Source: Ruminococcus sp.
Lineage (GTDB): Bacteria; Bacillota; Clostridia; Oscillospirales; Acutalibacteraceae
Direction of reading: 5' to 3'
Length of the DNA: 52,005 nucleotides
NCBI GenBank assembly: GCA_017458105.1
Contig: JAFTGC010000032.1
Location: 1 to 52,005 of the forward strand
Shown: piece by piece, positions 2,114 through 21,696 of the stretch
Numbering within the stretch: the stretch's first letter is position 1
How the letters are laid out: each line of letters begins with the position of its first letter
Notes under the pieces: generated by a model
Database searches by the model: none
Told to the model about the DNA's origin: nothing
The model's input: only the letters and a program-made list of their open reading frames with translations
Position numbers and translations under genes: made by a program

Positions 2114-2157
2114 ATCTCCTTTGGCAATACTTATATCAGAGTATTGTCGGAGGGGAT
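2114..2157 (+). promoter_or_regulatory. Leader hairpin sequestering the sigG ribosome binding site
   Basis: Positions 2114-2131 pair without interruption with 2140-2157 (14 Watson-Crick and 4 G-U pairs, 8-base loop). The 3' arm contains the entire GGAGGGG ribosome binding site (2149-2155) of sigG, three bases from the ATG at 2161. In the folded RNA the site would be fully paired, implying low or conditional translation. Confidence 0.8.
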
Positions 2158-20694: not shown

Positions 20695-21696
20695 TTATTG
20701 TTCACTTTCATCAAGCATTGTCTGAATATATATTCCATACCCCTTTGTAGGGTCATTTACAAAAACATGAGTAACCGCACCTACTATTTTATCGTTCTGC
20801 ACTATTGGAGAACCACTCATTCCTTGAACTATTCCGCCTGTTTGTTCAAGAAGTTTTTTATCCGTTACTTCTATGATTAAATCTTTATCCTTGTCAAACA
20901 GAAGTTTGTTGGTAGGTTTAATTTCTACCTGATACATTTCCGGAGTTTCTCCAATTATTGTGGAATAAATATATGCTTTGCCGGGTTTAATTTCTTTGCT
21001 GTCAGCAATTTTATATTCTTTATATTGCGGTTTGAATTCGCTGTTGCAAAACAGCCCAAACTTTGAGTTACAATATGCCGAACCTATTTCGCTGTCTTTA
21101 AAATATCCGCTCAGTCCGCCGGGCGAGCCGCTGCGTCCTTTTTCAACACCTTCAATTACTGCCGGGCAAATATCCCCCTCGTGCATAGGTAATAGGGTTG
21201 AGGACTCTTTATCGCATATTCCGTGCCCAAGACAGGCAAATGTGTTATTGTCTGTGTCATAATAGGTTATAGTTCCAATCCCGGCACAACTGTCTTTAAT
21301 CCACATTCCGGCAGTATATTTTCCGTTCACCTGTTTAGGCTTAAGAGTAAAGTCCATAATTTCATAATCTCTGTTGACGGTAATTTTCAGGCTTTTTCCA
21401 TTTGATTTTTCAATAATATTTTTGACTTTACGGTTATCCTCAATTTCATTACCGTTTATCATAACAATAATGTCATTGGTACGCAGTCCGCACTCCTCAG
21501 AGGCAGAATCTTTTCTTACTTTTGTAATCATTACGCCTTGCGAATAAAACTTGATGCCGAACGGCTGACCGCCAATCTGAACAGTTTTATCGCTGTAATT
21601 ATTAGAAGTTGCAATTACATTATTATATTCCGCTGTTATTTCCAGCGTAGCAATAACAGCAATAACGGCAATTATTAGAGAGATGACTTTTTTCAC
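20695..21696 (-). CDS. spoIVB: Stage IV sporulation serine protease SpoIVB
   Basis: This 333-residue S55-family protease is secreted from the forespore and triggers pro-sigma-K processing in B. subtilis. Residues 1-22 form an N-terminal membrane anchor and a PDZ domain spans about 45-125 (GLRTNDIIVMINGNEI). The catalytic His lies in FACLGHGICD, and the catalytic Ser in VQGMSGSPIVQNDKIVGAVTHVF. GTG 21696 is the likely start, with AAAGGGTG 8 bases upstream; an earlier ATG at 21723 lacks such a site. The pairing with spo0A is a conserved arrangement. Confidence 0.96.
   Translation of the reverse strand: MKKVISLIIAVIAVIATLEITAEYNNVIATSNNYSDKTVQIGGQPFGIKFYSQGVMITKVRKDSASEECGLRTNDIIVMINGNEIEDNRKVKNIIEKSNGKSLKITVNRDYEIMDFTLKPKQVNGKYTAGMWIKDSCAGIGTITYYDTDNNTFACLGHGICDKESSTLLPMHEGDICPAVIEGVEKGRSGSPGGLSGYFKDSEIGSAYCNSKFGLFCNSEFKPQYKEYKIADSKEIKPGKAYIYSTIIGETPEMYQVEIKPTNKLLFDKDKDLIIEVTDKKLLEQTGGIVQGMSGSPIVQNDKIVGAVTHVFVNDPTKGYGIYIQTMLDESEQ

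Follow-up and report, generated by a model that had tools for sequence, protein, structure and literature searches.

A large hairpin preceding the sigG (spoIIIG) gene of Bacillus subtilis, credited in the accessible text of PMC5942855 to Masuda 1988 and Sun 1991, is proposed there to block read-through, and cannot form in RNA started at the sigG promoter, PsigG. According to the same text, a second, small hairpin of 5 bp at the ribosome binding site (RBS) is found in sigG's own mRNA and dampens translation 2-4-fold; when strengthened, it nearly blocks translation. Hairpins at the RBS with an energy no higher than -6 kcal/mol are given for 4 of 13 Clostridia, and a 14-nt PsigG spacer for 14 of 15 Bacilli (PMC5942855). 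The read-through sigG RNA of B. subtilis is described as untranslated in the part of PMC2530871 that is accessible, where Northern blots of Clostridium acetobutylicum are said to reveal spoIIGA-sigE-sigG, spoIIGA-sigE and sigG RNAs. C. difficile sigG has at least two promoters, one before spoIIGA and one just 5' of sigG (PMC7438776, partial text). A comparable logic is known from phage T4 gene e, where late promoters lie within the 5' strand of a structure that cuts lysozyme synthesis 100-fold (PMC3014915, partial text). In gene e and in I-TevI long early transcripts bury the ribosome site and late ones leave it free, as is proposed here for sigG, but phage timing and unrelated promoters and genes set these systems apart.

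The DNA analysed here, called the window, is a stretch of 52,005 nucleotides from a Ruminococcus sp. The sigG coding sequence spans positions 2161-2943 of the + strand, and is identified by an open reading frame and by profile NF006071 (420.5 bits, above the cut-off of 372); TIGR02850 scores 412 bits, below its cut-off of 457. The start codon is ATG; TTG is the assigned start in 25 of the 35 sigG loci of the genus (L001-L034 and L056), and is often fused to a T-run. The adjoining upstream gene, found at 689-2074 on the + strand and therefore co-directional with sigG, encodes a Big_2 Ig-like protein whose N-terminus looks lipoprotein-like by eye. It ends 86 bases 5' of sigG, no terminator-like site was found by the terminator scan on the + strand between 1900 and 2104, and the gene is the likely source of read-through RNA. 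As the initial annotation had stated, sigE is not located upstream; the best sigE match in the genome, of 343.9 bits (cut-off 348.6), is on a separate contig, C21. Nor was sigE found upstream of sigG in any of the 35 genus loci, for which 180 to 1500 upstream bases (median 1500) have been examined. The absent spoIIGA-sigE operon is genomic context, and is taken as no part of the hairpin device.

The sigG hairpin results from the pairing of positions 2114-2131 (5' arm) with 2140-2157 (3' arm) of the + strand. Its 18 uninterrupted base pairs, read directly from the sequence, include 14 Watson-Crick and 4 G-U pairs (2117-2154, 2121-2150, 2122-2149 and 2124-2147). The Shine-Dalgarno sequence GGAGGGG (2149-2155), which ends 5 nt 5' of the ATG at 2161, lies inside the 3' arm and is paired throughout. 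Both features had been noted initially and are borne out. Residues 2132-2139 constitute the loop, within which the computed fold adds one U-G pair (2132-2139), leaving a 6-base loop at 2133-2138. The fold of region 2075-2200 has a minimum free energy of -38.9 kcal/mol versus -20.14 (sd 3.1) for shuffled sequences, so that the stem exceeds chance by far (z -6.05; none of 200 shuffles as stable). At Rfam gathering thresholds the sigG leader has no match, the two matches of the window being RNase P and a tRNA.

The 5' arm, of sequence ATCTCCTTTGGCAATACT, coincides with promoter spacer and -10 element, and is predicted to occur in read-through RNA only; the 3' arm would be present both in this RNA and in sigG's own. 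Among the leaders of relatives, conservation within the hairpin is highest in a string of the 5' arm fitting GNCAATAMT, which is present in most sigG leaders of the genus and the order, and is preceded mostly 14-15 bases ahead by GHATR. The GHATR-N14/15-GNCAATAMT shape is that of promoters read by sigmaF and sigmaG, an assignment that was put to the test with matrices. In the window the -35 element GTATA (2104-2108, + strand), assigned by matrix and by its conservation in relatives, is separated by 14 nt from the -10 element GGCAATACTT (2123-2132, + strand), assigned by motif and matrix, of which residues 2123-2131 also serve as the loop-proximal half of the 5' arm. The spacer is 15 nt long in 24 of 34 genus leaders.

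Leaders of sigG have been gathered from 56 of 59 related genomes; three (G021, G036, G047) lack a whole leader. G031 has two equal sigG copies, of which one was used; these copies, full-length matches of equal score on contigs C17 and C54, are perhaps an assembly duplicate. The class sample comprises 83 leaders from 118 genomes, the others being repeats of the own or order set, partial sigG genes, or genomes with no sigG-like match. Early promoter counts relied on matrices trained on the same leaders, and were repeated with matrices derived from other sets, reverse complements serving as control. With a matrix built on 73 class leaders, 34 of 35 genus leaders outscored their own reverse complement (medians 17.8 vs 2.5), 27 leaders against 1 reverse complement reaching a score of at least 12; in the rest of the order, 19 of 21 leaders exceeded the control (14.2 vs 4.0). 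Conversely, with a matrix trained on genus and order the reverse complement was exceeded by 75 of the 83 leaders of the class (14.0 vs 3.0), and with a pooled matrix by all 80 Bacillaceae sigG leaders. When both strands of the window were scanned, the sigG site ranked first, at 24.2 bits, among three matches of at least 15 bits. The strict promoter pattern had 2 matches across the own genome versus 3 for the reversed control, and alone is thus uninformative genome-wide; the second match sits, by eye, among trp genes. At loci L006 and L036 a sigmaF/G promoter could not be recognised in the roughly 110 bases preceding sigG. On the matrix comparisons, the hairpin's 5' arm appears to be sigG's own sigmaF/G-type promoter.

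The residue equivalent to A2138 is an A in all 34 genus leaders with a promoter, and because of this constancy we infer that transcription starts there (2139 is also possible), on the + strand and within the loop. Outside the genus, A is found at the expected start in 8 of 19 leaders of the rest of the order, 29 of 73 of the class and 4 of 80 of the Bacillaceae. An RNA starting at about 2138 would lack the 5' arm, so that only read-through RNA would fold. The mean unpaired probability calculated for the Shine-Dalgarno sequence of the window (6-base site) is 0.00 in read-through RNA versus 0.67 in the own RNA; the medians for the 52 of 56 leaders endowed with a promoter are 0.01 and 0.50. For the predicted own RNA, 2138-2200, the computed fold is no more stable than those of shuffled sequences (z -0.20), and the ribosome site has no stable pairing. 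The hairpin is thus most likely a property of RNA entering from the upstream gene. Control of translation, as initially annotated, is its likely purpose. The accompanying proposal that the hairpin is part of normal sigG mRNA, and keeps SigG low until the stem is opened, is very probably wrong: the 5' arm being a promoter, the hairpin would mute read-through RNA instead. The promoter predicts a start downstream of 2120, the very observation that the initial annotation had named as contrary to its proposal.

Complementarity of promoter and leader is retained among species while the sequence of the arms diverges. The pairing energy of promoter and leader from the same species averages -20.27 kcal/mol, versus -12.24 (sd 0.49, n=52) with permuted partners, and the lowest of 5000 permutations reached -14.08. 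Removal of leaders more than 80% alike left 37 leaders of genus and order, in which matched and permuted energies were -19.5 and -11.7 kcal/mol (z -14.0); z values of the dereplicated sets are -7.7 for the genus (18 leaders), -10.0 for the rest of the order (19) and -10.9 for the class (55). The Bacillaceae sigG set gave z -1.3 with just 4 non-redundant leaders, too few to inform. Loci with a promoter score below 8 (L006, L036, L044 and 10 class loci) have been left out of energy counts. Pairing at or below -15 kcal/mol is found in 28 of 34 genus leaders, 16 of 19 leaders from elsewhere in the order, 30 of 73 in the class, where the other 43 are weaker, and in all 80 Bacillaceae leaders. An alignment of related leaders had been suggested initially as a check on the stem. 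Of the 53 promoter-bearing leaders of genus and order, 40 were passed through MAFFT and RNAalifold (the 13 omitted include several weak pairers), and no consensus structure was returned. This result is ascribed to slips of register, and support therefore comes from the energy permutation and not from column covariation.

The strength of pairing varies with the direction of the upstream gene. In genus and order the median energy is -23.4 where this gene is co-directional (n=43, 40 at or below -15) and -9.5 where it is divergent (n=9, three of them at -15 or less; p 0.0006 by the Mann-Whitney test, relatives not being independent). Three of 9 divergent loci are strongly complementary, and 3 of 43 co-directional loci are weak. 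Orientation was curated by hand with the energies in view, hence not blind, and L033 and L006 were excluded. In the class, leaders with sigE upstream have a median of -16.7 (n=48, 27 at or below -15), compared to -9.5 for those in which none was found (n=25, 3 at or below -15; p 0.018).

The large B. subtilis hairpin resembles that of the window, judging from its published description, in gene, in burying the ribosome site in read-through RNA and in being absent from PsigG RNA; the 14-nt promoter spacer of the window is also that of the Bacilli described. In B. inaquosorum and B. mojavensis (B. subtilis is not among the loci) the 5' arm of the large hairpin is seen by eye inside the promoter spacer, as in the window, and in Bacillaceae leaders TTTTTCCCACCC of the spacer faces, by eye, GGGAGGGAAAAA at the ribosome site. 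The window differs from B. subtilis in hairpin sequence, in having the Big_2 gene upstream instead of sigE, and ATG instead of GTG as start codon. Median complementarity is about equal in the genus, which has no sigE upstream (-23.05), and in Bacillaceae (-23.6). The initial annotation had referred to a published B. subtilis leader hairpin that dampens sigG translation. Such a hairpin exists, but the dampening one is the 5-bp element, which shares with the window a paired sigG ribosome site and is located, as far as the source describes it, within the own mRNA, where the window is predicted to have no comparable stable structure. The window element, known here from sequence alone, appears instead to match the large read-through hairpin, kept with no sigE upstream, and the sequence evidence suggests that this hairpin has been kept far beyond Bacillus.

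A similar arrangement is found at spoIIR. With the sigG-trained matrix, 29 of 30 regions upstream of spoIIR exceed the control (medians 12.8 vs 0.7), 17 of 30 versus 0 of 30 reaching at least 12. Matches are weaker upstream of gpr (26 of 30 above control, 8.4 vs 1.6) and weak at SASP genes (24 of 30, 3.3 vs -0.3; one locus was too short). Promoter-leader complementarity of spoIIR gave z -7.7 in the order, with 11 of 20 leaders at or below -15 (30 of the 31 loci from relatives were covered; 26 of these have a promoter, and dereplication left 20), and z -4.6 in the class, with 6 of 26 at or below -15 (30 of 77 loci, 26 after dereplication). In the gpr control no such complementarity was found (z -0.9; 2 of 19 at or below -15; 30 loci, 19 with a promoter). 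Bacillaceae spoIIR gave z -6.5 on 17 loci out of 20, after two near-copies and a locus lacking a promoter had been set aside; promoter scores are low (4.1 to 11.5), the -35 element being a differing GTTTA, and the best match was used unaltered. In many spoIIR leaders of genus and order the promoter contains ACCTGCC or ACCTGTC, and the ribosome site GGCAGGT or strings resembling GGACAGGT. In the spoIIR upstream regions inspected (L119-L148, L316-L345, L376-L395), a few genus members have TTTTTTT between stem and ATG. The genome hosting the window, 83.6% complete, has no spoIIR that could be found. The window also includes spoIVB (20701-21603, minus strand; L371), upstream of which the sigG matrix found no convincing sigmaF/G-type promoter; 2 of 28 spoIVB loci score at least 9. 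Complementarity at spoIIR like that at sigG, observed for spoIIR in Clostridia and Bacillaceae, would be new as far as searched. Neither it nor a hairpin in Clostridia with no sigE upstream was reported in the titles and abstract openings among the matches listed, most subscription papers lying outside the search.

The hairpin is best explained as a device proofing sigG against read-through, a reading to which we assign a probability of roughly 0.85. Promoter DNA would encode the 5' arm, so that stray RNA is muted and RNA from PsigG is open. We infer that in this organism polymerase arriving from the Big_2 gene copies both arms; the resulting RNA would fold and bury the ribosome site, and mistimed translation of sigG, or its translation in the wrong cell, would be prevented. 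Forespore polymerase, carrying sigmaF and later sigmaG, would start at about 2138 in the loop, yielding an RNA devoid of the 5' arm with an open ribosome site. The computed support is given by the hairpin, the motif overlapping its 5' arm, the complementarity across diverged species and the link with upstream direction. The initial suggestion that control at the RNA level replaces operon control is better phrased as shielding from the neighbour's transcription.

The hairpin might also, or mainly, act as a terminator, read-through polymerase stopping at a U-run before the start codon and PsigG transcripts escaping because they lack the 5' arm. Runs of at least 4 T in the 12 bases before or into the start codon occur in 24 of 35 genus sigG leaders, compared with 4 of 21 genes of the window, sigG probably being one of these. 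At least 5 T in 8 bases come directly after 14 of the 34 genus stems, and several spoIIR leaders have TTTTTTT after the stem. Since T-runs lead into the TTG start in many genus sigG leaders, the element may also terminate read-through in relatives. Such tails are hard to count, as U-runs pair with the A-run ahead of the stem. In the window, however, the tail is ATTTTATG, and an intrinsic terminator, a GC-rich stem with at least 5 T in the next 8 bases, is not listed here by the terminator scan; in Bacillaceae sigG, 0 of 80 leaders have a T tail of this kind. Termination is held to be an unlikely account, if one still to be reckoned with.

Far less probable is that the stem belongs to normal sigG mRNA and lowers translation always, or until some factor opens it. 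The small B. subtilis hairpin does act in this way, lowering translation 2-4-fold in the available account (PMC5942855), and a TATAAT at 2098-2103 could start RNA just 5' of the stem. This hexamer, however, is found upstream of the motif in just 2 of 34 genus leaders, those of the window and of L010, being absent from the other 32 with a promoter, and the GHATR-N14/15-GNCAATAMT motif turns up repeatedly in different families as well as before spoIIR. Moreover, as the strengthened B. subtilis hairpin nearly blocks translation in the description available, an 18-bp stem in all sigG mRNA would be hard to tolerate. The least credible account makes the inverted repeat an operator site in the DNA, bound by a repressor of sigG, with no RNA structure involved. 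The repeat does overlap the promoter and is nearly symmetric, but its arms diverge while staying complementary to the partner arm, and in strong cases it takes in the ribosome site.

Returning to the proofing against read-through, its extension to sporulating Firmicutes at large is tentative, and we would give it slightly under even odds. One trick would operate on sigG and spoIIR, viewed with the same reserve as the two genes committing the forespore: the sigmaF promoter would be antisense to the ribosome site of the very gene it drives, often with a terminator at the end, making the message valid only if started at that promoter, and the complement would re-evolve in each species and relax where no neighbour reads in. 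If the reading of the hairpin is true, it would explain how a sigma factor sensitive to mistiming can be placed behind an active gene. A hairpin first described behind sigE would be maintained in Clostridia and outlive the loss of the sigE neighbour, and spoIIR would be indicated as a second gene under a like guard. The resulting sequence rule, a promoter complementary to its own ribosome site, may serve to find other genes barred from read-through expression.
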